A stretch of DNA of 64,000 nt, taken from NCBI RefSeq assembly GCF_032854445.1, contig NC_088307.1, positions 22,890,017 through 22,954,016 of the forward strand, read 5' to 3'. The notes beneath the pieces were generated by a model. The model was not told the DNA's origin and did no database searches. It was given only the letters and a program-made list of their open reading frames with translations. Positions 6,147 to 39,200 of the stretch are shown here, piece after piece. The first letter of the stretch is position 1. Each line of letters begins with the position of its first letter. This DNA is from Liolophura sinensis. Taxonomy: Eukaryota; Mollusca; Polyplacophora; Chitonida; Chitonidae. The translations under genes and the position numbers were made by a program.

Positions 6147-9100
6147 CTGAATTAAACGGAAACAAGAATTAATAAATGAATGATCAATATTTAACGCCTC
6201 AGTGGCAGTATTCCAATCACATCGTGGCGAGAACATGTTAAAACTAGTTCACATTATGTAAGCCACTTCGCTAACGACCAGTGAGAAGCTGAAAATTATA
6301 TAAATCCAATGAATACAAGATCGCTGACAGCGATTCAGAAATAGGCATTTTCCTATGCAATAACGTTGCGAGGACCCTTTTCTTCACCCACGCCGTTTGT
6401 TACAGAGGCGATCACGTGGTCTCTAGTTTCAGATCTGTCTTACAGAATAGGTCTATGCGCGAGAGTGATAACATTCAGATATATAACAAACAGCAACGCT
6501 GTCGTACGGAAAACATCTGTGGCATAGTACCCATCAAGAACAAATATTCTTAAAGATGTGAGCCGAGTGATTTCAGCGGGCCCAAACGGAGAGCTCTAGC
6601 ATAGTCATCTTTCATGCATGTACGACTAGCTTTCCAAGAGGCTGCCGGAAATAAGATGTGCTAATGAACAGGAGCCATGTAAAAATGATATAGATTGTCT
6701 TTCATGAATTGCGAATCCCGCATAACTTGCATGCATGCATCAATAAACCTTTGATTCTCTCGAGTCTTGCCACAAAAGTGAATTTTGACGTCAGGACTCG
6801 CCACACATATCCCCATAATCCTCTGCCTTGTATTTTGAACTTGAGAAGTCTTTGGTTGATGCATGCTTGCCTTGTGTAAAAAGTGTTGTGTAATAAGGTG
6901 ACCTGGTTAGAATTATATGGTTAACATATTTAAACTAGTGACAAAACACCAACACAAAAGCAACTTTGATGTAAGAACAATCCGAATGACGAACCATTCG
7001 ATATTATATAAAGGGAAAAACATCTAGTTTAGCCCGAACTTGAACTGGTATACCAAATTTGATCTTCCGATCAGTTGTAGTATTCATGCTGATGTGAGAA
7101 CGTTATCCCAAGTAACATTTTAAAGTTGGTTACCATGGAAATCAGAAATTTAGTCGAAATGAAGTTTCTTCTTCTCGAGCCAATGTATGACACCTCAAAT
7201 ATTGAGTTGAATATCGGATCTATATCACAAGGCTGGCGAAGATGACTAAATTTGCAGTTCCTGCTTAGTGCGGTTGGTCTTCTATTGGGAGCACGTCGTC
7301 CAAATTAACGCTTTAGCGTTGTGCTTGTTGCCATAGAAATTTAATCAAAATGACCCTAGTTTAAGTAGGAATGTATTTCCACCAAATAGGATGAGTTTTC
7401 TTTTGCGAGCATGTCAACATTAAACTTTTTAGAGGAGACTGCCATTGAAAACAAAAAATTTAATCGAATTGAAACAACCTCGGCTTAGAGAGGAATTTAG
7501 TTCCACGTGAACTAAAGACATATAATGTGACCCGATCTAACCGACAAAATGGGCAAGCAAAAAATACGGTTAAAATAGCCATATGTTTTCCGACATAATA
7601 CCGAAATTTAATCAAAATGATCACAGTTTAAATAGGAAAACTTTCTTTGCGAGCATGTCGTCCAAATTAACATTTTAGGGGAGACTGTCATAGAAAAGAA
7701 AATATAACCGACTTTAAGTGACTCCAGCTTTGAGAGAAATTTAGTTCCAAGTCAACTGAAGGCATATACTAAAATTCCTATCTGATAGGCCTACAATACT
7801 TGTCTGTTGTGAGTACGGTGTCCCTCCCGACGAACAGACGGGGCGATGGAAAGGTGGAGATGGTGGGAGGGGGGGGGGGGGGGGGGGGGAACAACAATCT
7901 CTTCGACAATAATCCCTTCGTGCTCACTGGGATGGCTTCAATGCGACATACATAAAATCTCCACATACCATTCTTAATTCTGCTGTTCTTCTCTGACATG
8001 TCATCTGTCTCGTCATCGTCAACTGGCATCTGGCGTGAGTGACGCGTCCACCAAGTGACCCGATGTAACTGACAAAATGGACAAGCAAAGCATACGGTTG
8101 ACATTGCCATATGTTTTTTTTAGCAGAATATCCATGTATATATGAATTTGCACGGGTTGTACGACCTGAGTTGCGAAGCTTGGGGGCTGATCAATGATTC
8201 GCTTTGTAATTCTACGGCTTTAGCCTATAAGTTATGTGTGCAAAAATATAAAATTTAATAAGTAAAATATAAGTATAACATAATAAATAAAATCCTTCAA
8301 TTAAGGGTTACCTTTTCCGGAGGTCGAGCTGGAGTAAAAAGGCTGATGATGAGAATTAGTGTGGCGGTGACGGCGATCTCTGTGGCGGCCACATACAAGA
8401 AGTGAACTCTGACAACAAACGGTCTGTCATCTGTGACGTCACAGGCGGGGGAAGGGTAAACCACGGACAACGCCAGGCGGGTCACACCAACCAGCTGACC
8501 AGCGATCATCCCGTAAAATGCTCCCTGTGCGGTTAGGTAATAAAATAAATGCGAGACATTTATGCGTATGTGGCAAGTAATCCAACAGTCTTCGGTTTTT
8601 TGGCTTGTAAAGACTGGCCCTTAGCACCAATTTGGATCTTAGCGGTCATTTTTTTGCGTCATTTACTGTGCTAAAAGCGGTCTTACGGTGAACGAAGTAT
8701 CCAAATCACCTTTCGGATCGTCAACCGGTAAAACGATACCCAAAGGACGGCTGGATTCCATATGGACGTTTACAATTTCATGTTACGGTAACCATAGCAA
8801 TCTCGTCATATCAGAAGTGGAAATCTCTACGTGAAGCTGCCTTTTTTCCACTTTTCACAACAGTAAAATTTTTGAAAGCACAGTGAACCATTATTATGCA
8901 GATTATATACTCTTACACAGAGACAATTTTAATGCACTGAAAGTGTCAATTTTGCTTACCGGTTCGGTGGCGCGTTTCCAGAAGAAGCCTAAGATGAAGA
9001 CAGTACCCCACGGTGGACCCACACAAGACATGAGCATTTGCCAGTACTGCCACAGTTCTCCCCCTTGGGCAGCTTGCATGATGGGAATCCACAAGATGGC

Positions 9101-12100
9101 GCACCCAACCAATGCCAAAACGACAATCCTGTATAAATGGCCATACATGTTTTCAATTTTTGGGAGCATGTCGTCAACTTAACAAAAACTGGAAATTCAC
9201 AAAAATTATAAGATATTGTATCAGTAGGCTATATTTATGAGACATTGTACTAACAGGCTTATATTTTGTTTTGAATAAAACAATTTCCAAATAATGTGTG
9301 GCATCTCTAAGCTATTAAAGAGGCCTTTCAATAGAACAATCACAGAATCACACTAATCACAGAACCAATCCAAACTACTCAGCTTAGGGTGCTTTTGATT
9401 GGCTTTTGTTATCAGAAGAATATTTCACCCCCTAATAGTCAACAATTTCCACTCGCTGGCTTTCTTTCCACATGTAGAACGTTACCTAGCTGTCCACAAC
9501 CAACAGTTTCCACTCGCTGCCATCCTTTCTACATGCAGAACCTTACCTGTCCACAATCAACACTTCTCGCTGGCATTCTGTCAACACGTATAACTTTACC
9601 CGCCAACAATCAACAATTTCATTTTACCCGCTCGCTGGTGTTCTTTCTACTTGGTTCAACTGACCTATCAACAATCAACAACTCTCACTCGCTGGTCTTC
9701 TTTCTAGATGTATACCCTTACCCGCCAACAAGCAACAATCCCCATTCGTTGGCCTTCTTTCAACATTTATAATCTTACCCGCTAACAATCAACAATTCCC
9801 ACTCGCTGCCAATATTTATATCAAGGATATTAAATTAAAATCCTTCATTCCAAGATTCTTAAATTTTACAGTAAGTACAGTTCTCTTACCATAAGTAAAT
9901 GTGGTTGGAGTGTCGAGAATCTCTAATACTCTTGGCCTTCATAACCAGGGATTAGGTGCTGTGTACACACTTTGCATGAATCATTCATAATTTCTTACTC
10001 CATACACTTTTTTTTACTTCTTTGGTCATTTGTATTAAACGTATTTTTGGAAAGTGATCGTACGGTAATTGACCAGGAATGTACTTTATTGTTGACGATT
10101 GGTATACGGACATCTGTGCCTACGCCTTTATTTCTACATGTATCATTTTACCTGCCAACAATCGACAATTCTCAACCCCTGGCGTCCTTTTATACTACCA
10201 GCTTACCTGTCAACAGTCACCAATGTTTATTCATTCGCATACTTTCTACATGTATCGCCTAACCTACCAACAATCAACAATTCTCAGCTTCTGGCATCCT
10301 TTCTACATGTATCCCCTTACCTGTCCACAATCGGCAATTCTCGACCTCTGGTGTCTTTTCTACATGCATCACCTTACCTGTAAACAATCAACAATTCTCA
10401 GCCCCTGGCGTCCTTTCTACATGTAACACCTAACCTACCAACAATTAACAATTCTCAGCTTCTGGCATCCTTTCTACATGTATCGCCTAACCTACCAACA
10501 ATCAGCAATTCTCAGCCTCTGGCGTCCTTTCTACATGTAACACCTTACCTGTCCACAGTCAACAGTTCTCAACCTCTGGCGTCCTTTCTACATGCATCAC
10601 CTTACCTGTCCACAATCAACAATTCTCAGCTTCTGGCATCCTTTCTACATGTATCCCCTTACCTGTCCACAATCAACAATTCTCAGCCTCTGGGGTCCTT
10701 TCTACATGTAACACCTTACCTGTCCACAATCAACAGTTCTCAACCTCTGGCGTCCTTTCTACATGCATCACCTTACCTGTCCACAATCAACAATTCTCAG
10801 CTTCTGGCACCCTTTCTACACGTATCCCCTTACCTGTCCACAATCAACAATTCTCAGCCTCTGGGGTCCTTTCTACATGTAACACCTTACCTGTCCACAA
10901 TCAACAGTTCTCAGCCTATGCCGTCCTTTCTACATGTAACACCTTACCTGTTCACAATCAACAGTTCTCAGCCACTGGCGTTCTTTCTACATGCACCACC
11001 TTACCTGCCAACAATCAACAATTCCCACTCGCTGGCGTTCTTTCTACACCGCGTCCAGAGATCCATGGTAAAAATACTACTGGCGCTGTTGAAGACTGAC
11101 GTCAGAGTGCTCATGCAAGCTGCAAACAACGCCGCCAACATCAAACCACGAATACCTGAAAGCGAAAATGAAAGTGTTGTGCACTTTTCCTGCTTTCAGA
11201 ATTGTATACAATAAACCAGTAACATTTGCCAGTTCATATGCACTATCCCATAACAATGTTGCAAATGTCAAGCGACGTGCCAAAACTGTTACGTATACGC
11301 AATCTGTTGCCCTGGTTGCCCCTGAAACTTTGATGTGTACAAGGCTATTTTATTTCCGTTTTAGAATAAAGCGTTTGCAAGTTGCATTATATGAACTGGG
11401 GCTAGTTAGGCTCTTTTAAACTAAATATAGTTATATTTGTAGGTTAACATATTGGGTTAAAAACCCGTCAATTTATTATAAAACAATAACTCTGCCGCTT
11501 TACTCAGCTGCCGCTTTACTCACCTGGCTGCAGAATTTTCAGCACAAGTACCGGATATGCAATGTTCGAACATCCAGCCGGGTTTCCACATATACACTCA
11601 CAAGCTGCCGGATCCACACATGCTACTTCATCTGGCAAATAAAGACAATACTATTGCTGCCAAAGTAAAGGAACCTTAAGCGGAGAGTAGAGCTATCCAT
11701 CTTGGATAAACTCGGGGGCATGTGTTGTATATGCATCGTGTTGAATATAGTCGCTACATTGCACATATGAATAGTTGCAATCAAATCTCAAAATAAATAC
11801 AGATTTTGATTATTTATTTGATTGATGTTCTACAAAGACATTTCACTTATACGATGGCGGCCAGCATTAGGGTGGGAGGAAACCCTTCAAAGCCCTAGGA
11901 AAAACCCAAGACTATCCGCAGTAATCATTAAACATAGGTGATAACAAAATTATTTTGCTTCTTCCCGGCAATCCTCACAATATGGCTCCAGTATCGGTAA
12001 AGTGGCCTTAAGCAGTAATCATTTATTCAGTTTTTCAATTACTGATAACTGACTTTTAAATTGACCACCATTTTGGAAATTCATCTTTCGATTAACGACC

Positions 12101-15100: not shown

Positions 15101-15840
15101 TATAGTGTAACGCTATGTCTTGTCTAAGCTGAGTTTTAGGTATAGTACTACACTTATTCACGCGTGACCCAGGAAACCCTATCTACACTGTCAGCTAACC
15201 AGCGTCGATTCTGTATCCCTTTAATTAAAGACGCGTCCGACTGTACCAACTGTTGGACCCATGTCTCCGAAAAGAGTATAATGGTAACTTTCCAATTTCC
15301 CTCATGTCTGTATATCATTTTCCTCATGGAGCGATCAGATTTTGCGTAATGTATATTAATAACGTGTTATGAAATGGGAAAGGTTTCTGTTATTGAGGCA
15401 ATGGCCGACCGGGAAATCATTAGCACCTAATCGCCTAACCTGTCATCGTAAAGGCGGCTGAGAATATGAGAATGATGGATCCTGATAAATACATGCTCCA
15501 TCCAAACAACATCTGCACAAACACAGCGCCTGCGTACATCTCTATCTGTAGAACAAAACAGATGGTAAGCAAATTTCTTATTGTTACTTGGGACGCTATA
15601 AACGTTAATTTAGAAAACATACCTGAAGATAGTAATTTAACTCCAAAGGATCAGTCATTGTCGTGAGCATAGAGTTATATGACTGGTTTATTTGGGCTGG
15701 TCGTAGGTTGGAAAGTTTGCCAGCAACCTGCGGATGGTCGTGGGTTTCCTCCGGGCTCTGCCCGGTTTCCTCCCACCATAATGCTGGCCGCCGTCGTATA
15801 AGTGAAATATTCCTGAGTACGGCGTAAAAAACCAATCAAA

Positions 15841-15883
<43 letters not shown>

Positions 15884-18800
15884 ATATGCAGTTACCATGA
15901 AAGCTTCAATATATTACAATGCCAAGTCAAAGCACCAAATGTATGGTTAAAAATGGTTGATCACGGGCATAACCAGACACCACAGACAAACCCCACTGAT
16001 ATCTTGGTGATCACGCACACAAACAGAAACAACAGACAAAACTCACCGATATCTAGGTGATCACGCACACAAACAGACACCACACACAAACCCCACTGAT
16101 ATCTAGGCGATCACGCATACAAACATACACCACAGACAAACCCCACTGATATCTTGGTGATCATGCATACAACAAGACACAACAGACAAAACTCACCGAA
16201 ATCTAGGTGATCACGCACACAAACAGACACCACACACAAACCCCACTGATATCTAGGTGATCACGCACACAACCGGACACCACACACAAACCCCACTGAT
16301 ATCTTGGTGATCATGCATACAACAAGACACAACAGACAAAACTCACCGAAATCTAGGTGATCACGCACACAACCAGACACCACACACAAACCCCACTGAT
16401 ATCTTGGTGATCATGCATACAACAAGACACAACAGGCAAAACTCACCGATATCTAGGCGATCACGCACACACCCAGAAACCATGCACAAAACTCAACGAT
16501 ATCTTGGTGATCATACATACAACCAGGCACCACAGACAAAGCTCACCGAAATCTTGGTGATCACGCACACAACCAGACACTACAAACAAAACTCACCGAT
16601 ATCTAGGCGATCACGCACACACCCAGAAACCATGCACAAAACTCACCGAAATCTTGGTGATCATACATACAACCAGGCACCACAGACAAAGCTCACCGAT
16701 ATCTAGGCGATCACGCACACACCCAGAAACCATGCACAAAACTCACCGAAATCTTGGTGATCATACATACAACCAGGCACCACAGACAAAGCTCACCGAT
16801 ATCTAGGTTATCACGCACACAACCAGACACCACACACAAACCCCACTGATATCTTGGTGATCACGCACACAAACAGACACTACAAACAAAACCCACCGAT
16901 ATCTTGGTGATCACGCACACAAACAGACAAAACTCACCGATATCTAGGCGATCACGCACACACCCAGAAACCACACACAAAACTCACCGATATCTTGATG
17001 ATCACGCATACAACCGCAGACAAAGTTCACCGATATCTTGGTCATAACGCACACAATTAGATAATATAGACAAAACTCACTGATATCTTGGTGATCACGC
17101 TCACAACCAGACACTACAAACAAAACTCACCGATATCTTGGTGATCACGCACACAAACAGACACCACAGATAAAACTCACCGATATTTTGGTGATGATAT
17201 AGACAACCAGGGACAAAACCGACAGGTAGATTCTCAGCCGCTTGCCTCCGTATCTTTTCTTCAGGTATTCAGGCATTGTATATACCTAAAAATTGAAAAA
17301 AAGGATAAAATTCTAGGTATTTTTACTCTGTTAATCGTCTCTTTAAATTTTGCAAAGAAAGTTAATCATGATTCCACGATTTTATTTAAGCATCGATGCA
17401 CTATATTCTAAACTCTGGAGGTTGTATTTCCAACTAGACTAATTTACCTTTCCAGGATAACATTGTTCTTGCTCTAGTAGTAATCAAACGGTAAGTCAAA
17501 CGGTTTCAGGGTTTTATCTCTCCTGGTGATAGCCGAATAAAAAGCGTACAAAGTAAATTGGGTACAATCCCATTTCATAATCATCGTATAGGTTACCATT
17601 CCCATCCACAATCTTTGGAAAGCAATTACCTGTATATACAAAATATTCACATTTTTCCTGGCCATTGTTTCCTGCCCCAGTCGCATGATAATGAAAATTA
17701 TCCAAAAAACATATTATCTCTATCTGACTTACCTAGCAAACCCTCTACAATAATTATTTCAAGTAATAAAATTCATCGATTATGGCTATTATTAATTGTC
17801 GTATATAATCGCGCCCATGTTAAAATGCACTGATTTTCTCCATCACTTTGTAAAGCGACGACACTAAAGACAAAAGGACGTCACCACTATGTCTTAACTC
17901 GAAAATCTCCCTATAGATGTGGCCTGGGATTAACTTAACTCTAAATGCTTACCCCAGAAGCGATGAATACGGGAACAAAGATCCACCCTAAGGCCAGGAT
18001 AAATGGAATTGCCTAGAAATTCGACAAAAGCACAAAAAAACCCCGTCAGCTTGACGATCACTTAATTTGATGATTATTACAAATCGATCTATCCTACACA
18101 TGAAGTGAAATATGTTTCTTTACAAATAAATTCAACACTGGATTAAATTTCGCATTGCTACAATGTCCTTAATCCATGGAGATTATATTTCCAACGGTAC
18201 AGAAACTAGGATTCCACTATTACCGATGAAATAATGATTTTCTACTATTTGCATATCGCATGGTGTTGCATGGTCAAAAACTAACATTTCTGATTCGTAT
18301 ATCAGCGAAATATTAATTACCTGTAACATTTTTAGAGACCGAAAATCTATTTCCTGCTGATGAAGTATGATCTTCCCATGTACATTAAGAATTTGGGATT
18401 ATATAAGCTAACGGTGAAATTTCGTTCCTTTCCTGCAGAAAAGACGTGTAGTAGCCTACTATTTGCATTTTTGAAATATGAAATTCCATGGATAGACACT
18501 GGAATTCCGTTTTCTGATAATTAAATATGAGATTCTATTGTTGGAGAATGGAAATCTTTTTTTTTAAATTCTGAAATTATGAAGTTCACTGATACAGCAT
18601 GGAATTCTTTTTCTTTAAACGTATGGCGTAAGGACAGTGAAATAAATATTTTTTATTAGCGAAATACGCGATTCCATGCTTAGGCCCTGAAATTTGTGTT
18701 TTTTTGTTTTTGTTTTTTTTTTATTTTTCTTTATCAGCGAAATACGTGATTTCATGCGTAACCCTTGGAATTCGTTTTCCTATTATGTCCATATGACATA

Positions 18801-21406
18801 TAATTTCATTTACAGATGTAGAAACTTCCTTTTTTCTTAATTGTTGATATACGAAATGCTATGACTGTTTTGTCATTTAATGTTGTATTACATGCCACTC
18901 AAAGATCATCCCGCCTATGCCCGAGGCTGCCGCTGTTCCCGCTAGACCAATGAACAATGGAGCCCCGATGTTACTGGCGTAGATGGAGGCCCCGATCTGG
19001 AACAGGACAAAAATAGTAAGTACGTTACGTGGTCAGAGTATAGTAAATGATGGAATAGTTTCGTAACTCAGTGGTCAGAGTAGAGTTAATGATGGAATAG
19101 CTTGATGACTCAGTGGTCAGAGTAGAGTTAATGCTGGAATAGCTTGATGACTCAGTGGTCAGAGTAGAGTTAATGCTGGAATAGCTTGATGACTCAGTGG
19201 TCAGAGTAGAGTTGATGATTGAATAGCTTGATGACTCAGTAGTCAGAGTAGAGTTAATGCTGGAATAGCTTGATGACTCAGTGGTCAGAGTAGAGTTAAT
19301 GCTGGAATAGCTTGATGACTCAGTGGTCAGAGTAGAGTTAATGATGGAATAGCTTGATGACTCAGTGGTCAGAGTAGAGTTAATGCTGGAATAGCTTGAT
19401 GACTCAGTGGTTAGAGTAGAGTTAATGATGGAATAGCTTGATGACTCAGTGGTCAGAGTAGGTTAATGATGGAATAGCTTGATGACTCAGTGGTCAGAGT
19501 AGAGTTAACGATGGAATAGCTTGATGACTCAGTGGTCAGAGTAGAGTTAATGCTGGAATAGCTTGATGACTCAGTGGTCAGAGTAGAGTTAATGCTGGAA
19601 TAGCTTGATGACTCAGTGGTCAGAGTAGAGTTAATGCTGGAATAGCTTAATAACTCAGTTGTCAGGGTGGGATTTAAACATGGAGAATATTGATAAATTT
19701 GTGCTTAATAGCTGGATTGACACCTATGCACAAACCTGGTTTCCATATCATCAGTGGTGTTAAAAACAGTGTCCAGTCATGTTGAGCCACGTGTATCTGG
19801 TCACACATTCATGAATCAAACAATTTTCACCATTCTTTAGAAAATATCTATGAAATGACTGAGTTCAAACTATGTCAAGCTAAGTACAACGGTGTCATGT
19901 AATATTAAAGGGAGTGACTGTTTAAATAAGTCTGTGGTCAGAGAAGAATTAAAATCTGGTGAATATCGATAAATCGATTGATCCAAAAGAACCATTTACA
20001 TGTTGCAAAATGGAAGTTAAACTATGAAACACGGCCTCTTCAGATAACTGGTTGAGATATGTGTGCGGTCACACTTTCACGATTTAAACAATTTCTCAAA
20101 CCAATCTTTACTTAAAATAACTATATGAACTAACTTCATGTTCATGAAGGTAATTTGCTGATAGGTCTGTTTAAAAAATTTACAAAAGTTAACTTTAACG
20201 GTGCTAACTAGTACGGTGGACAATGATGGTGTATCTGTCTTCTTTGTTCCTCGGTTGAAAAGTTAATCATAAAACATAAACATCATGAATACGTCACCGG
20301 AATCCACGTCATGTTTTTCCCAGCCAAGAAGTATCCACGGGCATTTCCCTTCGCAGCTTTGAATGTAGCCTTATGAAACAGAAAGAAATTCTTTAAAAGT
20401 GTCCAAATATTCAGACAGTCGAGAGGACGTGGCAAGGTTATGTTTTTGTAGTCGTTTATTGTTTATCTGTCTGTCTATCAACAAGTTTATTTTCTGTTTT
20501 GGTTCTTTTCTCAAATATCCCCAGCTACGAACCCTATAAACATTTGTCTTTATTACATGAGCATGCCGTAAGTGGGAAGGTCTGCCAGCAAGCTTTATGT
20601 CTTATATTTGCAACTGACATGGACATTGTTTACGGACTGCGAGTTTGAAATTTGAATTGTCTAGAATATCGACTGTCCTGCATCAATGGAAACTGATGAC
20701 TGTTTCTCTCATTCATGTTACCGGCTTTACTTTACTATTTACATAAATATTTCTTACATATTTCTTTGGGAATTGGGGTTTTAAGTTATTTTGGAAATGG
20801 GTCTCGTAGTTATCGACTTGGGGCCTTCCTATATGGTTTACGAGTAGAATGTCAGACTTGACGCTAAGATTAAGCATATCTTTCCGAGTTCACCATGACT
20901 TTTTCCATGACATGTAGCAGGACTGCACCATATATGCCGTGAAACATATTATTATATCACCCTGTAGACATTCACACGCTATTTTTAAACCATACGTGTC
21001 GTAGCAAACATTAATATACTAAAATAGATGTTCCGTGTCAATAATTGCAAGACGAATTTTTCCAAACAACGTTCAAAACCCCAGAGGACAATAGGAGTAT
21101 TGTAGGCCCATATATTATGCGAAATCCCTATATCCAGAGAAAAGTTTTCAAGAACGTCCAGAAGATGCAAGAAATGTTTTATAGGCTCGTCATTTTAATC
21201 TATCTCCAAATCGTTTACAATACTAGTTTATAAGTTGTCATCAATCAAAAATATATATTTAAATACATATCTTTGTACACACATTCCCTGACAGCCATAC
21301 TCACCCATGCGCCTACGATAAGGACAACCAAGAAGTAGAGGCCTATCGTCAAACTATCCCCCCAGTGGAGAGTGTAGATTGGGCGAGGAGATGAGCACTG
21401 GTCCAT
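5929..21406 (-). CDS. SLC5A9-like: SLC5-family sodium/solute cotransporter (SGLT4-like), 15 exons, 644 aa
   Basis: Plasma-membrane Na+-coupled transporter of the sugar branch of the SSS family. Exons (- strand, 5' to 3'): 21406-21305, 20369-20298, 18996-18892, 18012-17953, 17285-17181, 15545-15440, 14060-13980, 13774-13566, 12658-12523, 11631-11524, 11155-11005, 9128-8960, 8524-8312, 8068-7969, 6146-5929; 1935 nt including TGA. All introns are GT-AG with agreeing phases. Landmarks: RGYFLAGK (about 47), [10 protein letters not shown] (60), [12 protein letters not shown] (116), [11 protein letters not shown] (about 251), WFWCADQ (274), [15 protein letters not shown] (284), FNSAS, IPIMQ, LFTP, and a hydrophobic C-terminal helix. 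Closest by memory to SLC5A9/A10. The usual Na+ and sugar-contact Asn, Trp, Lys and Gln (hSGLT1 N78, W291, K321, Q457) are present, but the SGSGHF-type segment is GAPLF and Tyr290 is Phe, so the substrate is open. Sequons NTT and NST lie in the exon 8 loop. Confidence 0.93.
7100..7780. repeat. Degenerate tandem duplications in SLC5 intron 14
   Basis: At least two clear and one weaker copy of a roughly 240-270 bp segment. Shared landmarks: AATTTAATCAAAATGA (near 7337 and 7606), GCGAGCATGTC (7405 and 7650), TTTAG.GGAGACTG.CAT (7429 and 7673) and GAATTTAGTTCCA (about 7493 and 7738). A related GAGCACGTCGTCCAAATTAAC occurs at 7282, and GGGAGCATGTCGTCAACTTAA just upstream of exon 12 (about 9160). 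Confidence 0.6.
7524..7595 (-). repeat. Displaced partial copy of the exon 14 acceptor region, acceptor broken
   Basis: The stretch 7524-7595 resembles 8055-8125, which contains the true 3' splice site and first codons of exon 14. The true site reads TTTTGTCAG|TTACATCGGG; the copy reads TTTTGTCGGTTAGATCGGG, so the invariant AG is GG. Confidence 0.65.
7866..7891. repeat. Poly-G/C homopolymer tract in intron 14
   Basis: A run of about 20 or more G on the + strand, with one A near its start, 80 bases downstream (in gene sense) of exon 14. It would be a C tract in the transcript. Length is likely polymorphic or error-prone. Confidence 0.8.
7969..8068 (-). CDS. SLC5A9-like: SLC5 gene, exon 14
   Basis: TTTTGTCAG|TTA...AATG|GTATGT. 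It encodes [13 protein letters not shown] and an acidic loop (VDDDETDD), the cytoplasmic loop before the last helix in SGLTs. Phase 0 in, phase 1 out. Confidence 0.9.
8312..8524 (-). CDS. SLC5A9-like: SLC5 gene, exon 13
   Basis: CGCACAG|GGA...AAG|GTAACC, phases 0/0, 71 codons: [19 protein letters not shown], the Cys-containing loop [19 protein letters not shown] and ISLFTP. These match the TM12-TM13 region of SGLTs. Confidence 0.93.
8960..9128 (-). CDS. SLC5A9-like: SLC5 gene, exon 12
   Basis: TTATACAG|G...CCG|GTAAGC. It encodes [20 protein letters not shown] and [20 protein letters not shown]. The Gln in IPIMQ corresponds to the sugar-contact Gln457 of human SGLT1. Confidence 0.93.
9430..9812 (-). 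repeat. 57-bp minisatellite, distal block, derived from the exon 11/intron junction
   Basis: About seven degenerate 57-bp units, the same family as the block at 10125-11047. On the - strand each carries exon-like GCGAGTGG, TTGTTGATTG and a donor-like CAGGTAA. They are separated from the main block by about 300 bp of unrelated sequence (9813-10124). Confidence 0.85.
10125..11047 (-). repeat. 57-bp minisatellite made from exon 11 3' end plus 5' splice site
   Basis: About 16 tandem units of 57 bp (for example unit starts at 10528 and 10585). On the - strand the unit begins TGTAGAAAG.ACGCCAG, passes TTGTTGATTGT, and reaches CAGGTAAGG. It corresponds to the last 44 bases of coding exon 11 plus the first 13 bases of intron 11. 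The first unit is the real exon end (donor at 11004); the rest are intronic copies, most keeping CAG|GTAAG. Confidence 0.92.
11005..11155 (-). CDS. SLC5A9-like: SLC5 gene, exon 11
   Basis: ATTTCAG-type acceptor (TTCAG|GT) and donor GGCAG|GTAAGG. It encodes [33 protein letters not shown] (Na2-site serines) and [13 protein letters not shown]. Its last 44 bases seed the adjacent 57-bp minisatellite. Confidence 0.93.
11524..11631 (-). CDS. SLC5A9-like: SLC5 gene, exon 10
   Basis: TTTGCCAG|AT...CCAG|GTGAGT, phases 1/1. It encodes [20 protein letters not shown] and [16 protein letters not shown], the Cys-rich extracellular loop typical of SGLTs. Confidence 0.93.
11806..11925 (-). repeat. SINE family 1 fragment in SLC5 intron 9
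   Basis: The reverse-complement tail TTATTTATTTGATTGATGTT, CACTTATACGATGGCGGCCA and GGGTGGGAGGAAACCC identify a 5'-truncated copy in gene sense. Confidence 0.75.
12100..12375. repeat. Locally repeated GACCATTTGCCAGCTATCA element
   Basis: Three copies, at about 12107, 12248 and 12319, share GTGACCATTTGCCAGCTATCA and then TGTC.TCGCTGCTCT. Diverged relatives with CTATCACACTGT.GTCG lie at about 14354 and 14814. Nature unknown; intronic within the SLC5 gene. Confidence 0.6.
12523..12658 (-). CDS. SLC5A9-like: SLC5 gene, exon 9
   Basis: CATTCAG|ATC...ACAG|GTAGGC. It encodes [23 protein letters not shown] (the Lys321-equivalent contact) and [11 protein letters not shown]. Phase 0 in, 1 out. Confidence 0.94.
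13566..13774 (-). CDS. SLC5A9-like: SLC5 gene, exon 8
   Basis: GACTGCAG|GT...CAG|GTAACG. It encodes [19 protein letters not shown], an extracellular loop with sequons NTT and [14 protein letters not shown] and WFWCADQ. The Tyr290 equivalent is Phe; Trp291 is kept. Confidence 0.94.
13980..14060 (-). CDS. SLC5A9-like: SLC5 gene, exon 7
   Basis: TATTTCACAG|GT...GCTAGGA|GTAAGA, phases 1/1. It encodes [20 protein letters not shown], then AIVLLAR. The donor was chosen because it alone preserves phase into exon 8. Confidence 0.88.
15440..15545 (-). CDS. SLC5A9-like: SLC5 gene, exon 6
   Basis: TTGTTCTACAG|ATA...ACAG|GTTAGG. It encodes [20 protein letters not shown] and the following helix, ending FTMT(G). 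Phase 0 in, 1 out. Confidence 0.92.
15705..15886 (+). repeat. SINE family 1, 5'-truncated, with long AAAT tail
   Basis: CAGCAACCTGCGGATGGTCG, TTTCCTCCCACCATAATGCT and GAGTACGGCGTAAAAAACCA, followed by about 12 AAAT repeats. It is antisense to the transporter gene (intron 5). Confidence 0.9.
15955..17218 (-). repeat. 50-bp minisatellite made from exon 5 3' end plus 5' splice site
   Basis: About 25 tandem units of 50 bp (unit landmarks at 16048 and 16098). On the - strand a unit reads CTGGTTGTGTGCGTGATCAC then CAAGATATCG|GTGAGTTTTG. It corresponds to the last 30 bases of coding exon 5 plus the first 20 bases of intron 5. The true exon end (donor at 17180) is the first unit. Some units have the donor changed to GTGGGG; most keep GTGAG. 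Confidence 0.92.
17181..17285 (-). CDS. SLC5A9-like: SLC5 gene, exon 5
   Basis: CAATTTTAG|GTA...TCG|GTGAGT, phases 0/0. It encodes [20 protein letters not shown] and the helix [15 protein letters not shown]. Its last 30 bases are the seed of the 50-bp array. Confidence 0.94.
17953..18012 (-). CDS. SLC5A9-like: SLC5 gene, exon 4
   Basis: AATTTCTAG|GCA...GGG|GTAAGC, 20 codons: [20 protein letters not shown], matching the ALGWVFVPVYI segment of SGLTs. Confidence 0.92.
18892..18996 (-). CDS. SLC5A9-like: SLC5 gene, exon 3
   Basis: CTGTTCCAG|ATC...CAT|GTAATA. It encodes [20 protein letters not shown], then TAAASGIGG and FEWH. This is the TM1-TM2 Na+/substrate segment; GAPLF replaces the usual GSGHF/GSGLF. 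Confidence 0.94.
19020..19670. repeat. 42-bp minisatellite next to the exon 3 acceptor
   Basis: About 15 units containing GCTTGATGACTCAGTGGTCA and GAGTAGAGTTAATG.TGGAATA (42 bp). It begins about 25 bases from the exon 3 splice acceptor (18996/18997). On the gene strand many units hold GCTATTCCAGCATT, resembling the real TGTTCCAG acceptor. Confidence 0.9.
20298..20369 (-). CDS. SLC5A9-like: SLC5 gene, exon 2
   Basis: TTCATAAG|GCT...CCG|GTGACG, phases 0/0. It encodes [20 protein letters not shown] then TWIP, the conserved GYFLAGR-type motif after TM0. The acceptor is weak in pyrimidines but keeps phase. Confidence 0.88.
21305..21406 (-). CDS. SLC5A9-like: SLC5 gene, exon 1 (start)
   Basis: ATG at 21406 gives [20 protein letters not shown] and the first helix [14 protein letters not shown], then GTGAGT. 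TTTCCAG immediately precedes GATGG, so a 5' UTR intron may end here, and transcription may start further right. Confidence 0.85.
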
Positions 21407-30255: not shown

Positions 30256-33200
30256 CTGAAATGAGAAACAAAAATAAAAACATTCCCATGAAAATTTTAG
30301 TTCCCAACCTACTACTGTTTGCAGACTTCTGTTCATTGTAGAAAAAAATTCATGATTTCAAAGTCTAATTTTTGGGCTAACTTTATTTGTGACTAGGATT
30401 AGATCTCATCAACTTTTCAATTTAAATTTAGTTTCTCTTTCCGGCCAATGTTAAGTTTGCCTGCTGTCTAAGGAAGTGTCAGGGTGTTACTTTCGACAAG
30501 AATCCGATTGTCGTCAAATTTACGGGAATCGGCTTGGATTCCTGTAAGAAAGTCACAAAAATAATTTTCAAAATGACCAACTGTTCTGAAATTTTCAATT
30601 CATAACCATGCCCCCTCTCAATAAGTGGATGTATGACCATAAACATCACCGTAATGCATGTTTTGTTCAAATTTTTACACGCTATTGAGCGTTGTTGTTG
30701 TTTTTCACCATGATAACTTTCAAAAACATACAATCACTAGAACCTCTATCCTGACGAATGGAGATCAAAATAAACTGTAAAGTAATTTTGAAATGAATCG
30801 CCAAACTGTTGGTTTTATCCCACATTGCAAGTAAATTCTTTAGCATCAGTTAACTCACAAACAATGATATACAGGAGGGGTTGTAATACAAGCTGGCCCG
30901 TGGGCCAAGCTAAACTTTAACAGCAGGGAAGGTAATTAAGGAGTTTAAATGTGAAAACAAACTCTGGTGAAAAGGGAAGTTGTGGGTAAACAAAGTGTGA
31001 GTTCATTGGTCTTTAGTTTGATTGAACTTCAGCATGCCTGTAAAAGTGACAGAAGAGCAGATAAGAACATGTGCTGGTAGTGAATGTTGCTATGATACAG
31101 GCTATCCCATTGGCTGTGTCTCTCCTGTGGACCAATGAGTGAGCTTCTAACAAACTGTCGGAAATGCCACCATTAAAACTTGGAGTAACTGCATACTTTG
31201 TGGCATCCGATCTGACCTAGATTCTAGTGGATTCCAGAATCTACGGGAATGCATTTAGATTCTAGTAAAGAATTATGAAAATAATCGCCTGAGTGTGTTT
31301 GACAGAACAGCCAACTTACCCCCAGAGAACTGGCTTATTTACACATTATTTATTTTATTTATTTGACTGATGTTTTACACTGTACTCAAAAATATTTCAC
31401 TTGTACAAAGACGGCCAGCGTTATGGTGGGAGGAAATCAGGCAGAGCACAAGGGGAAACCCACAAACATCTGTAGGTTGCTGACAGACGTTTCCATGCAC
31501 AGCCGGAGAAAGCCAGCATTGAAGAGAGGTTCCTGGGTCACTGTGCCATGCTGGCATGTTAACCCCCCTTGGCACCATGTGAGCTAGTCCGGTGTCAATT
31601 TTGGGAAGTGTTGTTATCACACTGGTGAGCCAGGTCTCCTCAAATAAATCAAATCCAATCAGTTTATTTATTTATTTGATTGGTGTTTTATGCTGTACTC
31701 AAGAATATTTCACTTATACGACGGCAGCCAGAAAGAGCCCGGGGAAAACCCACGACCACCCGCAGGTTACTGGCAGACAAATCCAAACAAACTACTTACG
31801 TGGGGTGTTGGTCAAACATGATGGGCAAATACTCATCAACAGGAAGAAGTTTGGTCAGAGGCTTTTGGTCAAGCAGCTTTTGAGCCCCACGATTGGTCAG
31901 CAGGTAACTGAGCGTCCAGTAGGAATACAGCGGGTACACGACAGTGTCTGTGCCATCCACAAAGAGTTCTTCCTCATTGTACAGCCTCTTACGACCTAAA
32001 TAGCTGTAGAGCGAAAATCCATGTATACATACATTTATAACACAAGATTCAAAAGCATAGACTGGATTGATTGTTTGATTTATTTATTGATTGATCGATG
32101 GCTGTTTAATGCCATACTTAAGAATTTTTCATTTTCCCCACGGTGATTTATTTTAAGGGTGGAGACTGATATACCTTCGCACGTGTGCCATAGACTGACA
32201 GAGATATACACACCATATTGGTGGAAGACATGCGGTCTTCATGAACAGTCAGAAATCTAATCATCGGTTAACATACTAGGATATTTATCTGTTTATTTGA
32301 TTGGTGTTTTACGCCCTACTCAACCATCAGCTGGCAGACCTTCCCATGTACGGCTGGGAGAGGAAACCAGCATGAGCTGGACTTGAACTCACAGCGACAC
32401 ACACTAAGATATGTAAAGTGGTCCAAAAACTTCATGTAAGACCACACAATACAATGTTATCGGTAGTTTCTAGCCACCAAGGTCCTGTTTTGAAGTCTAG
32501 GGCATCATCCAACCCAGAACAGAATCTGAATCTACTGCCTGTGAATAAACGAATCATTACGGCCCCAAAAAAGATCTCCAGCTTGTGAATGGATGAATGG
32601 TTTGTTACTACTTAAAAAATGAAAGAAAAACTTGTTTTTTTTGTGTTTCTTAACATGGAATATTTAATGTGGCCTAACTATAAAAGTACAAAAAAAGATT
32701 CTCAGCTTTCTACATGGGGTATAAAAATGGCTTTATTTTATTTATTTTATTTGATTAGCGTTTTACGCCGCACTCAAGAATATTTCACTTATACAACGGC
32801 GGCCAGCATTATGGTGGGTGGAAACCGGGCACAGCCCGGGGGATACCCACAACCATCCGCAGGTTGCTGGCAGACCTTCCCATTTACGGCCAGAGAGGAA
32901 GCCAGCATGAGCTGAACTTGAACTCACAGCGACCGCATTGGTCAGAGGCTCCTGGGTCATTACGCTGCCCTAGCGCGCTAACCAACTGCGCCACGGAGGC
33001 CCCCAAAATGGCTTTAAGGTAAACTACAGTTTCCCTAAGGCCCCAGTGGTCAGTCCAGAAATTAGGTACCCTGGTGTGGTGCCTTAGGGCCACTTTCTCC
33101 TGCTTGTGAATGAATGAATGATTATGGCTTAGGGCTACCCTGTAGTGCTATTGAGGTGAGAGTTCTTACCTCTAAACCCCAATTTACACATGATGTGAAT

Positions 33201-36200
33201 TTACCAGCACACATACATACACATACTTACATAAGGTCCCATTCGGGTAAAGCCTTCTCGACCTCTAGCAGCATGTTGAAAAGTCGTGTTCGGAAATATG
33301 CCTCAAATCTGACGTCATCTTCAAACACTGCGATACGATTGTAACCATTTTTTATGACCTGAATGAAATAAAAAAGCCCTGATATGCTGCTTTGACTACA
33401 GGTAGCGTTTACTTATTTACACTAAGACCACCCATCTTAATTGCCGAAGATTAAGTCGTACAAGTGTTGACTCCAAACCGTTTTCATTTGTTACTAGGCT
33501 GTGTGATAAGCACTACTTGTGAGGACGCCAGCATGAGTGACCGCATTGATGAGAGACTCCTGGATCACTGCCTCGCATTGGCACGTTAACCACATTTGAA
33601 CACTATCTAAACTGCCCAGCAAGTGCTGTCGACATTAATTTCGCCTAGGCCCTTAGAACATAAAGGCAGCGCAATCTTGAAACTCAAAAGTCTGTGGCTG
33701 GCATTTCATTAAAATCTTGAGTGTTTGGTGACTGTAAAACAGAGACCTCAATCACAAGGGCTAAACCCACAAAACTACTTGTTTTTTTTTTTTATACATT
33801 TCCAGACCATTCACAATAATTTATTTATTTATTTATTTGATTGGTGTTTTACGCCGTACTCAGAATATTTCACTTATACGACGGCGGCCCGCGTTATGGT
33901 GGGAGGAAACCAGGCACAGCCCTTGGGAAACCCACGACCATCTGCATGTAGCTGACAGACCTTCCCACGTACGACCAGAGAGGAAGCCAGCATGAGACTC
34001 CTGGGGCATTACGCTGCTCTAGCGCGCTAACTAACTGAGCCATGGAGGCCCCGTCCATTCACAATAAGATAAATGTTGTTTGTACTCACATCCATCCAGA
34101 TATTGTAATGACTCAGAAAGCATCCAATCTCACCCATTGTCATGGGTCTGGGGAAAGAAAAAGTCCAGAAATTGTATGGATTACACACCTAAAATACTTC
34201 TGAGAATACAACTACAATCCGAGGCTACTTCATGATTTGGTTAACTTCAAGGTTAAACACTGATACATTGTATAAATAAAAAAATTAACACACCTATGTA
34301 CATGTAGAGATTTGTTTATTTTACTCTAAAATTACTCTTATTTTACTCTTACTTTAAATTCACTGATGGGCTACAGCCTGGGGGTAACCATCGTACCTTG
34401 TCAGATACCAGAGAAACATCCTAACGTAAAGCCACTGACAACCTGCATAAGCTGGATTTGAACCTGTGATCTCTCAGAACATTTATCCTGGTTAGTATTG
34501 AATGTATATCAGATCAGCCAGTGTTCAGAGAACTTAACATCTGCTTATGACACAAACAGGGTATTATTTAAGCAGAGAGAGCTTAAAATTGAGATCAGTC
34601 TGAGACAATTATACTGATCCTGATGCCAGGGCCTCAGTCATTTCATACCTCTTATGGTAAGGATCTGCATAGCCTGGTAACATGGATATACCCTGCTCTT
34701 CGATGAATGTTTCGTTTATTTGCCTGTAATAAGAAGATCACAATGTGAGATTTCTGTTAAACTGAAAGTGCGGCTTTGTTATTTTGTACTTTATTTTGTT
34801 TTCTACATCATCAGTGATCATCATAATCAAAAGGTACATCTTACCACTTAAGGAAACTTTTATCTTCACTGAAAGAATGAATGAATGAAACCTTAAGCAT
34901 TATGTAGCAATATTTAAAAAAAAAATACCAATTTCTGGCAACTTTACAAACGGGGAAACTCATTTTTGAAAGGGATATAAAATGATGGACACAGACAAAA
35001 ATGCATGAAATTTTGAAGTCGTAAAAGATCCCTAGGGGCAAAATCTAATAGACATTTGGACAATGACACACAGAGATGAATAAAGGCTTATATTTTATAC
35101 AGAAAAGCAATACAATGACACTGACATCAGACATAATGTATGATGTGGACATGACATCATGCGTGGACTTGATCTAAGATGAGTGCTTAATGTAAGATGT
35201 AGATTTCATGTCAACTTGATCACAGATATTGACTTAGATAGTGTAAGATGTGAACTTGACCACAGATATTGACTTAGATAGTGTAAGATGTGAATCTGAC
35301 CACAGATACTGACTTAGAGTAAGATGTAAACTTGACCACAGATATTGACTTAGATAGTGTAAGATGTGAACCTGACCACAGATATTGGCTTAGATAGTGT
35401 AAGATGTGAACTTGACCACAGATACTGACTTAGAGTAAGATGTAAACTTGACCACAGATATTGACTTAGATAGTGTAAGATGTGAACCTGACCACAGATA
35501 TTGACTTAGATAGTGTAAGATGTGAACCTGACCACAGATATTGGCTTAGATAGTGTAAGATGTAAACTTGACCACAGATATTGACTTAGATAGTGTAAGA
35601 TGTGAACTTGACCACAGAGATTGACTTAGATAGTGTAAGATGAGAACTTGACCACAGATATTGACTTAGATAGTGTAAGATGTGAACCTGACCACAGATA
35701 TTGGCTTAGGTAGTGTAAGATGTGAACTTGACCACAGATATTGACTTAGATAGTGTAAGATGTGAGCCTGACCAGAGATAGTGTAAGATGAGAACTTTAC
35801 AACAGATATTGATATACATAGTGTAAAATGTGAACATGACAACAGATATTGACACAGATAGTGTAAGATGGGAACTTGACAACATATACTGACTTCAAAA
35901 GTGTAAGATGTGGACTTAATGTCAGATGTAGAATTGATATCAGACATGGATATAATGTAAAATGTAGAACTGATATCAAATGTAGACTTGATGTAAGATG
36001 TGGACTTGATGTAAGATGTGGACTTGATGTAAAATGTGGACTTGATGTAAGATGTGGACTTGATGTAAGATGTGGACCTGATGTGAGATGTGGACTTGAT
36101 GTACGGTGTGGACTTGATGTCAGATGTGGACTTGATGTGAGATGTGGACTTGATGTAAGGTGTGGACTTGATGTAAGATGTGGACTTGATGTAAAATGTG

Positions 36201-39200
36201 GACTTGATGTAAGATGTGGAGTTGATGTAAGATGTGGACTTACTTCCCATCTACAGCGTCCATCAAATGAGCCTCAATCCCCATCACTTTCAGCGTCCGT
36301 AACATACGATCTCGTCTCTCAGGTCGCCGCTTCAAATTAATCATGTAAACCTGAAACACAAATGCAATAAAACTCTAATACCACCACATTTAAACAAACA
36401 CTCACCAATGTAGTTTTCATCAACATACATGTAAGAACATACTTTGAACATCTTTTCAGGCATTTTTTCAAGACTTGCTCACTAATTTCCTTGTATGATA
36501 ATTTCCACCTTTAAATTGATAATGTTTGCTAAATTTGTGAATGACAAATTAAAAGGTTGCTGGGTGTGGGATTCTTTAAGATGTCCTAAGCGATTTCAAA
36601 TTTCATCCATGACTACTGTAATGACAGCAAAACATCAACCACCCGAACAATCGACCACTTGCAATTTATTTATTTATTTATTTGATTGGTGTTTTACGCT
36701 GTACTCATACGACAGCGGCCAGCGTTATGGTGGGAGGAAACCGGGCACAGCCCGGGGGATACCCACGACCATCTGCAGGTTGCTGTCAGACCTTCCCACG
36801 TACGGCCGGAGAGGAAGCCAGCATGAGCTGGACTTGAACTCACAGCGACCGCATTGGTGAGAGACTCCTGGGTCATTACGCTGTGCTAGTGCGCTAACCG
36901 ACTGAGCCATGGAGGCCCCACCACTTGCAATCATCAATGGATATACAGGATTCCCTTCTGAATTTAATGGTGAATTTAATGGTGAATTTACTTTGTGCTG
37001 CCACACTAAGGAAATACTGCTGGTCTTTGACTGACTTTGAGAACCTAGGTATCTAGCATAAAGATGTCAACAGTATGCAGAGAAGCCACCTTAACTAGAA
37101 AATTATATCACGAAAACTTGTTGGGTTAAACTATTTTCTGCCGTCCTTGGTGTTCTTGTTGCAAACTTGCCATTCTAACTTCCTCATTATTATGATCATG
37201 CTATTATGACCGCCATGTTATGAAAACGGAATTTAACACTGTCTAAAGATTGTTATGGTCCAGCTTTACAGGAACAGGGTGGGGTGTCATACGTACATTT
37301 TAACTGCAAAGCCCTTTGTGTTAAAAAGTTAAAACCAAAAAAATTTAACACAGAAGATCGTTGACATAAGTACTGACCTACTTGTAAATTGTCAAAAGTG
37401 ATATAAAGGAAACACTTTTACACTTGCCTTAGCATGAGGTAATCTCATTTTAAACAGAAATACGCAATTCAGCAATGAGTTCCTTCAGAGGAAAATATAC
37501 CTGTACAGTTTGGTCAAGATACAAGCCATTTACATAAGATTTTACTGATGTACAAGCACGTCAATCAGCTGTCACAACAACACCAGATAGAGGTTTGAAC
37601 ACGTGGTAGTTTCGGAAACCTTGCCCGGAGTATGTCTACTGTGTATAACTGATGGTTACCTGCCTGAAATGGTGTGAAAATAGAGCTCTTCTGAAATGGG
37701 AGGACAGTTTTCATCGTGACAAAACAACACGTGCATGCGGGTTAGAAAACTTTCCACTGTATTTAACAGGAGCTTCACCTAAGATACTTATCAAACAGAT
37801 CTTCATCGCTGAAATACATTTGTATGCTGATTTGTTACATTTATTTACGGGCCTGTGAACGGACCACACCGTTCTGAGTATCGTGCATTAGTCGATACAG
37901 CATAGCTGGTAAACTTCGGACAACTGGAGAGGCGGTGGTTAGCATGCCTGTCCAATGGGATCATGCTTTGGGACAGTTTCGGAATTTACAGATTTGCAAC
38001 AACTGCGGCTTCATACCTTCTTCCATTTACTTCATGGACAAAAAACATGGGTGTGACTTGTCAGGAAATCTTCAAGCCTCCCTATCACTTCCACAAATTA
38101 ATACCCCGCCTTTGTCACAGCTCAACTAGACTTGTTTCCAACGTCAGCTGTGAAGCTCCTGTTAAACCAGTCACATTGTACATGTACACTGCTCTTGGCT
38201 CAATTAGGCATAGTGCCATCTGGAGATTATCTATAGTAAGGTAAGATAACTCAGTGGCATAATTTAATGGGCTATATTACTGAATTATCTCCCCTTCAGA
38301 CAACATCCAGATAGTAATAAGGCTAATTCAGTCATGAGCAATGTGAACCTGAACAAGTAGTGCTTTCTATTATCTTTGCCCAATGTTAAACCCCAATATA
38401 TTGAATTTCCATTACACGATAATGATGATGTCTTCTTTCAACCAAGATGAGGTGAAGACAGTCATTGGGGGAATTTCTATGACATACTGAAGAAGACAAA
38501 GATTACAAGTACCAGACCTGGTCAAAACCCAGTTTGTCCGCGGGAATATCTTCCACGTAGATGTGAGGGGAATGGATCAGAGGGTCGCCATTCACTGTGG
38601 GAGTTAAAAATAAAGAAAATGTTATTATTCATCCTGGGAACCAGTCTTATTACTGTTAAAGAACTTTATGGCTGGCAAGATCTTTATAGGTTCTGTTAAC
38701 TTTCAAAGATGTGCAATCAAGAAAATGGCAATGGCTTTTTTAACTTTTCCCACTCACCTGATAATGGTTGTGGAAGCCTACATGTAAAACCTATTCATTT
38801 CCCAGCAATTCCAAACACCAGGTGCCGATTCCACGAAAGGCCTTGTGGAATGGAACCCATCACCTTATGATTTATTTATTTGTTTATTTGATTGGTGTTT
38901 TACGCCGTACTCAAGAATATTTCACTTATACAACAGCAGCCAGCATTATGGTGGGAGGAAACCGGGCAGAGCCCGGGGGAAACCCACAACCATCCGCAGG
39001 TTGCTGCAGGTCTTCTCAAGTAGGATCGGAGAGGAATCACCTAATGATCATTTATTCTTAATTATAACTATTTAAATGCTTTAAATTTAATTCACTTAAT
39101 TACATTTAAGGATTGTATGGCTGGAGTTTAAGAATATTTCACTTTTACAATTATGGTGGGGGAAACCACAGTGTTTGGGGAAAACCACAGTGCTTGGAGT

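Follow-up and report, generated by a model that had tools for sequence, protein, structure and literature searches.

A minisatellite built from an exon end and its splice donor in a chiton SLC5 gene, with candidate donor-side arrays elsewhere in the genome

A junction-spanning array in SLC5 intron 11

Intron 11 of an SLC5 transporter gene in the chiton Liolophura sinensis carries 22 tandem copies of its own 5' splice junction. The repeat unit is 57 bp long and consists of the last 44 nt of exon 11 (TGTAGAAAG...GGCAG) followed by the first 13 nt of the intron. We regard it as probable that this array is a junction-spanning minisatellite of the kind called "mirage", tolerated as a by-product rather than kept as a regulatory device.

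The array lies in a stretch of 64,000 nt (the window; contig C13:22890017-22954016) of the L. sinensis assembly, which comprises 609,464,459 bases in 632 contigs. The published Liolophura assembly first went under the species name L. japonica, since corrected to L. sinensis (PMC12441733). The window contains, on its minus strand, an SGLT4-like SLC5 gene: the NCBI protein can be placed on 15 exons without a single mismatch, and the top protein match of the stitched query was "sodium/glucose cotransporter 4-like [Liolophura sinensis]". A COLGALT1-like NCBI protein mapped with the same exactness onto 14 exons. The mapping bears out the SLC5 family, the exon number 11 and the exon 11 donor at 11004 that a preliminary description, made from the sequence alone, had assigned. 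The last base of exon 11 (11005..11155, minus strand, 151 nt) is 11005, and the GT of its donor (CAG|GTAAGG) begins at 11004; intron 11 spans 11004-9129 (minus strand, 1876 nt), and exon 12 (8960..9128, minus strand) follows the acceptor ATACAG|G at 9129/9128. Matches to the PDB entries of SGLT1 and SGLT2 run across the exon 11-12 junction, where the alignment with SGLT1 (PDB 7wmv) is free of gaps.

The founder unit surrounds the authentic donor (10992..11048, minus strand), its exonic part being 11048-11005 on the same strand. The intronic copies form two minus-strand blocks: a proximal one of 15 in-register 57-bp copies (10139..10991) and a distal one of seven degenerate copies with indels (9416..9822). 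Between them lies a spacer of 316 bases (9823..10138) with no recognisable units, in which a free scan gave best matches of 18-31 of 57 (maximum ungapped match to the unit, 31/57). The whole array measures about 1.63 kb. The composition of the unit and the two blocks agree with the preliminary description; its estimate of about 23 copies was right as to the array itself and is corrected to 22. Ungapped identity to the junction unit is 40-49/57 in the proximal copies and 35-46/57 in the distal ones, and the best ungapped matches in the window outside 9129-11200 are 29/57 on the minus and 28/57 on the plus strand.

The dinucleotide GT is retained in 21 of the 22 intronic copies, one distal copy having CT instead. 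The earlier claim that each unit carries CAG|GTAAG went too far, as CAGGTAAG is present in 12/22 copies and missing from ten. The 9-mer CAGGTAAGG, identical to that of the true donor, is found in 11 of the 22 (ten proximal, one distal), mostly at 57-nt steps, and the 44 exonic nt upstream of these decoys match the exon at 32-37 positions in the ten proximal copies and at 34 in the distal one.

Origin and growth of the array

The exon copy has practically the same mean identity to the proximal units (79.3%) and to the distal units (79.4%), and proximal-distal pairs average 68.2%. Because exon-to-block identity (79%) exceeds block-to-block identity (68%), the end of exon 11 is the likely source of the copies, as judged from these unit relationships; an exon intermediate between the blocks is what would be expected if the copies derive from it and it has itself changed little from the ancestor. 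Consistently, six of the seven distal units resemble the exon more than they do any proximal unit, and 14/15 proximal units resemble it more than they do any distal unit. Mean identity within blocks is 82.3% for proximal and 70.4% for distal pairs. The proximal block also holds a higher-order repeat of 171 bp (three units): the unit pairs 3 and 6, 4 and 7, and 5 and 8 share 98% identity each, and growth therefore proceeded partly by three-unit blocks. Folding of four unit strands gave z-scores of -0.45 to 0.81, and hairpin-driven expansion was rejected.

A 228-base piece of the array, searched against the 609-Mb assembly with scoring of the best candidates only, gave nine matches, all of them inside SLC5 intron 11, which points to local amplification and leaves a dispersed repeat as source of the array unsupported. 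That the units are a chance or dispersed repeat resembling the exon end, or an artefact of assembly, is improbable in the extreme. Such an accident might be easier in a window as rich in minisatellites as this one (45 TRF rows), but the 40-49/57 identity of the proximal copies is far from the 28-29/57 seen outside the intron region, and no other genomic copy was found among the candidates scored. An artefact is further opposed by the differences between units and by the PacBio HiFi reads of the assembly, whose mean length of 8.3 kb, according to the text available of the genome paper (PMC11068029), exceeds the 1.63-kb array.

A by-product mirage would have arisen as follows. The first step is shown by unit identity: a segment of 57 bases across the exon 11 donor was duplicated in tandem. 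Such a duplication may be close to neutral, since exon definition would still pair the acceptor of the exon with the nearest, original donor, and the extra exon end and donor would simply fall into the intron. The relationships among units support a later phase of divergence and renewed expansion, of which the distal block is an old remnant and the proximal block a younger product, enlarged in part three units at a time, with the real exon probably held near the ancestor by constraint on the protein.

Consequences for splicing

The NCBI protein uses the first, exon-proximal donor of exon 11. In a donor model derived from all 27 donors of SLC5 and COLGALT1, the two genes mapped, the true donor and the identical decoys score 12.0 (leaving the true donor out of the model lowers its own score to 11.6), and the median leave-one-out score of the 27 donors is 8.0. 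Models that read these nine bases only are unable to tell the CAGGTAAGG decoys from the real donor, and the 11 copies with this word agree with the earlier proposal of competing donors of equal strength. The premature stop predicted there was also recovered: because the intron starts G-TAA in frame, reading past the true donor gives AGG-TAA, and use of the first decoy yields a product of 412 aa instead of 644. As parts of a mirage, the decoys would be latent; any that were used would give the truncated transporter and a transcript probably subject to nonsense-mediated decay.

The same properties could serve a functional decoy array, in which repeated donors sequester U1 snRNP or provide regulated unproductive splicing through nonsense-mediated decay, tuning transporter output. 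The 11/22 copies with CAGGTAAGG, scoring 12.0 against a median of 8.0, and the stop directly after the first donor, with its 412-aa product, are what such a device would have. The donor positions, however, are not preferentially conserved: across the 15 proximal units, 6 of 33 other 9-mers are as conserved as the donor 9-mer or more so. This comparison therefore gave us no indication that the decoys are under selection, and selective retention of donors is unsupported. The decay of the distal copies, one with CT in place of GT, also argues against this function, as do the different units of the arrays at exon 5 of the same gene and in COLGALT1 (below), the latter free of GTAAG and GTGAG. We consider a regulatory role unlikely.

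A distal unit could alternatively be on its way to becoming a new exon end, an instance of intron or exon birth such as has been proposed for the globins of amphioxus (PMC3087553, in the portion available), and the units do hold exonic sequence together with a donor. The in-frame AGG-TAA right after the donor would block read-through from the exon, though, and most units score as acceptors at background level; such a transition is decidedly unlikely here.

Acceptor scores bear equally on recursive (ratchet) splicing, in which each CAG|GTAAGG would act as a joined acceptor and donor. Intact units do read AG|GT, and two copies, P11 (6.4) and P14 (5.6), have acceptor scores that exceed the 95th percentile of background intronic AG (4.7). 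The remaining 17 of 19 copies score from -4.1 to 2.5, below this cut-off, which is not sharp and makes the scoring a weak test, because 5/27 true acceptors also fall under it. An intron of 1876 nt, moreover, needs no ratchet, and we hold recursive splicing to be very improbable.

Returning to the mirage as a by-product, we infer from the sequence that the authentic donor wins by position. The array lends itself to the study of splice-site choice as a natural experiment already in place: should the first donor be the only one used, as in the NCBI protein, models based on local sequence must fail and position must decide, whether as distance from the acceptor or as order of transcription.

Relation to known junction repeats

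Mirages in Adh3 of amphioxus were reportedly described by Canestro et al. in 2002. According to the portions available of two papers, tandem repeats that span exon-intron boundaries have been named mirages in amphioxus (PMC3087553, PMC3902484), with cases in globins (PMC3087553) and in TnC and PGBD5 (PMC3902484); the statement in the preliminary description that no comparable case had been described does not hold. The units of these mirages measure 10-160 bp, AG/GT signals are kept in many copies, regular splicing is reported to be unaffected, and homogenisation takes place within a cluster and not at its edges (PMC3087553, PMC3902484).

By its sequence, the chiton array is a mirage: the 57-bp unit spans the exon-intron boundary, AG/GT is present in many but not all copies, and evolution is concerted inside and divergent at the edges (three-unit block duplication; 82.3% against 70.4% identity). 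The unit is of minisatellite size, as are the 50-bp unit at SLC5 exon 5 and a 104-bp unit at another locus, L003 (below). Several features set the chiton case apart from the amphioxus ones, as far as the available text of these papers goes. The host is a mollusc and not a cephalochordate. The chiton arrays reach 22 and about 25 copies; in the amphioxus globins and PGBD5 the number is 2-7 (PMC3087553, PMC3902484). The chiton copy number may therefore be unusual among mirages. One chiton gene has two different donor-side arrays, and others occur in further genes. Finally, amphioxus mirages include acceptor-side repeats, whereas none of the 27 chiton acceptors in the two mapped genes has one. As far as seen, then, the chiton case is new relative to amphioxus in three respects: its phylum, its number of copies and its recurrence within one genome. 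We found no earlier report of mollusc mirages in the literature searched, including the available part of PMC12783039, which is weak evidence of absence, and junction repeats go unmentioned in the available text of two chiton genome papers (PMC11068029, PMC12005716).

Two other systems are related. The human internal tandem repeats found in segmental duplications, in the portion available of PMC2812944, likewise involve minisatellite expansion at exon-intron boundaries, with the difference that in the chiton all the extra copies lie inside an existing intron. With the chiton array, mirages reach beyond cephalochordates into molluscs; the array also hints at a source of intronic minisatellites. 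In the model attributed to Rogers, an intron is said to be gained when a stretch containing an AG|GT proto-splice site is tandemly duplicated. The chiton array shares with that model the duplication of sequence that carries a splice signal, but in the chiton there is no new intron; an existing one is filled with copies of its own donor.

Further donor-side arrays in the window

A second junction array is found at exon 5 of the same SLC5 gene (exon at 17181..17285, minus strand; donor TCG|GTGAGT at 17180, from the mapped NCBI protein). It has a 50-bp unit in 25.1 copies according to TRF (15958..17195, minus strand), starts 15 nt inside the exon and thus overlaps the donor; in 14 intronic copies the donor survives, as TCG or TCA before GTGAGT or GTGAGC. 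A 16-bp unit is present in 2.2 copies at the donor of exon 10 (CAG|GTGAGTAAAGCGGCAG; array at 11492..11526, minus strand), the second with CT and not GT. In COLGALT1, arrays of 18-bp and 40-bp units occupy part of intron 9 (35208..36241, minus strand; donor GAA|GTAAGT at 36243). They begin at the third intron base, so that they adjoin the donor with a unit devoid of exon sequence, and the intron 9 array contains neither GTAAG nor GTGAG.

Array placement was assessed on the intronic arrays of SLC5 and COLGALT1 with a period of 14-200 and at least 3.5 copies (n=6, one of them merged from two TRF rows). For three of the six the start lies in the interval from -44 to +2 around a donor, where 0.46 would be expected (P 0.007); this interval was picked post hoc. 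Two of the remaining three end close to an acceptor (below). Self-similarity was seen at 2/27 donors, compared with 15.5% of random intronic positions, 0.6% of exonic positions and 0/27 acceptors; it is therefore not above that of random intronic positions, only above that of exonic positions and acceptors. No array spans any of the 27 acceptors of the two mapped genes.

Some other repeats in the sequences analyzed come close to acceptors. A 42-bp minisatellite in SLC5 intron 2 (19029-19665) ends 32 nt before the acceptor, and a 39-bp minisatellite in COLGALT1 intron 5 (40425-40729) ends 33 nt before it; both belong to the six arrays assessed for placement, and their ends look as though the branch point and pyrimidine tract had set the limit. 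Similarly, outside the window the array L008:1276-2604 breaks off 56 nt short of a site that resembles an acceptor and has an open exon. Three window segments (15678-15905, 31592-31999 and 36728-37066) have translations with recurring stretches in common, apparently belonging to a dispersed repeat element.

Candidate arrays elsewhere in the genome

The process appears to have acted more than once in the chiton genome, at SLC5 exon 5, at COLGALT1 (abutting only), at RPTOR and at the loci L003 and L034. The RPTOR locus (L035, C1:2110950-2111650; PDB match 5e-11) has donor words at 52-nt steps after an exon; its first copy shows only 19 matches over 36 exonic nt, and for the 30 bases around the donor two further copies match at 22 and 27. 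Judged by their sequences, three loci are weaker cases of recurrence. At L003:6167-6847 the 104-bp unit includes 70 nt of an open, acceptor-preceded exon together with its donor, and five well-kept copies follow the exon (58-65/70 exonic identity in the first five copies, 52/70 in the sixth). L034 has an array on a short open exon, with 9/11 exonic nt matching. L013, a degenerate array after an exon donor, is the weakest, because its units align poorly with the junction (19-30 of 57). Its exon may resemble IFI44; with E up to 1, Pfam named no family for the exon peptide of either L013 or L003, and a PDB search with the L013 peptide gave nothing useful.

A broader reading would make chiton 5' splice sites recurrent birthplaces of intronic minisatellites, a sizeable share of these being amplified exon ends, with up to about 20 latent donors in each such gene ignored by position. 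Donor-straddling duplications would then be filtered out less than other duplications that touch exons. We put this forward tentatively, as a view that could well be right and that we hold at slightly less than even. If true, mirages would be general in several animal lineages and not a lancelet peculiarity, and they would offer a natural test of nearest-donor choice among identical donors.

Array edges were compared with a donor matrix in 28 pieces of contig C13, taken at hand-chosen round positions, seven of them near the window. With a matrix of assumed donor frequencies, a donor at p <= 0.01 was found at 6/78 oriented 5' array edges in 264 kb and at 7/102 in 344 kb, about one being expected; controls in the 344 kb gave 3/102 for the reversed matrix, 0 to 3/102 for six shuffled matrices and 3/102 for 3' edges. 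An exon was recognised at the array start in three of the seven donor-edge arrays (the window, L003:6167 and L013) and not in the other four. No donor-edge array at p <= 0.03 came from eight further 10-kb pieces, which contained 12 arrays.

Genome-wide, triplets of AGGTAAG at a spacing of 20-50 bases number 3086, against 1452 for the reversed word (2.1-fold), and those of AGGTGAG 3674 against 1196 (3.1-fold), an excess to be taken as an indication and not a test, because most of the matches listed sit in a few long arrays and matches within one array are not independent. As single words in 344 kb, AGGTAAG occurs 57 times and its reverse 58, AGGTGAG 60 times and its reverse 35. Counted by eye among the matches listed, from the start of contig C1, there are at least 8 clusters of AGGTAAG up to 2.94 Mb, at least 14 of AGGTGAG up to 5.47 Mb and at least 8 of reversed AGGTAAG up to 5.88 Mb. 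Of the eight AGGTAAG clusters, two show an exon at the first donor, three show none, and in three the stretch starts inside the array.

The 13 highest-ranked donor-edge arrays of the C13 sample are all on the minus strand, and the eight AGGTAAG clusters among the matches listed on C1 are all on the plus strand. A uniform strand bias of donor arrays is unsupported: AGGTGAG clusters listed on C1 are mixed (11 plus, 3 minus) and genome totals are balanced, so no strand rule is drawn. At L032 (C1:1328500-1329250), where no exon was recognised, the array unit has a pyrimidine tract, TATAG and GTAAG directly adjacent (CTCCCCTTTTATAG|GTAAG) and looks like a repeated joined acceptor and donor.
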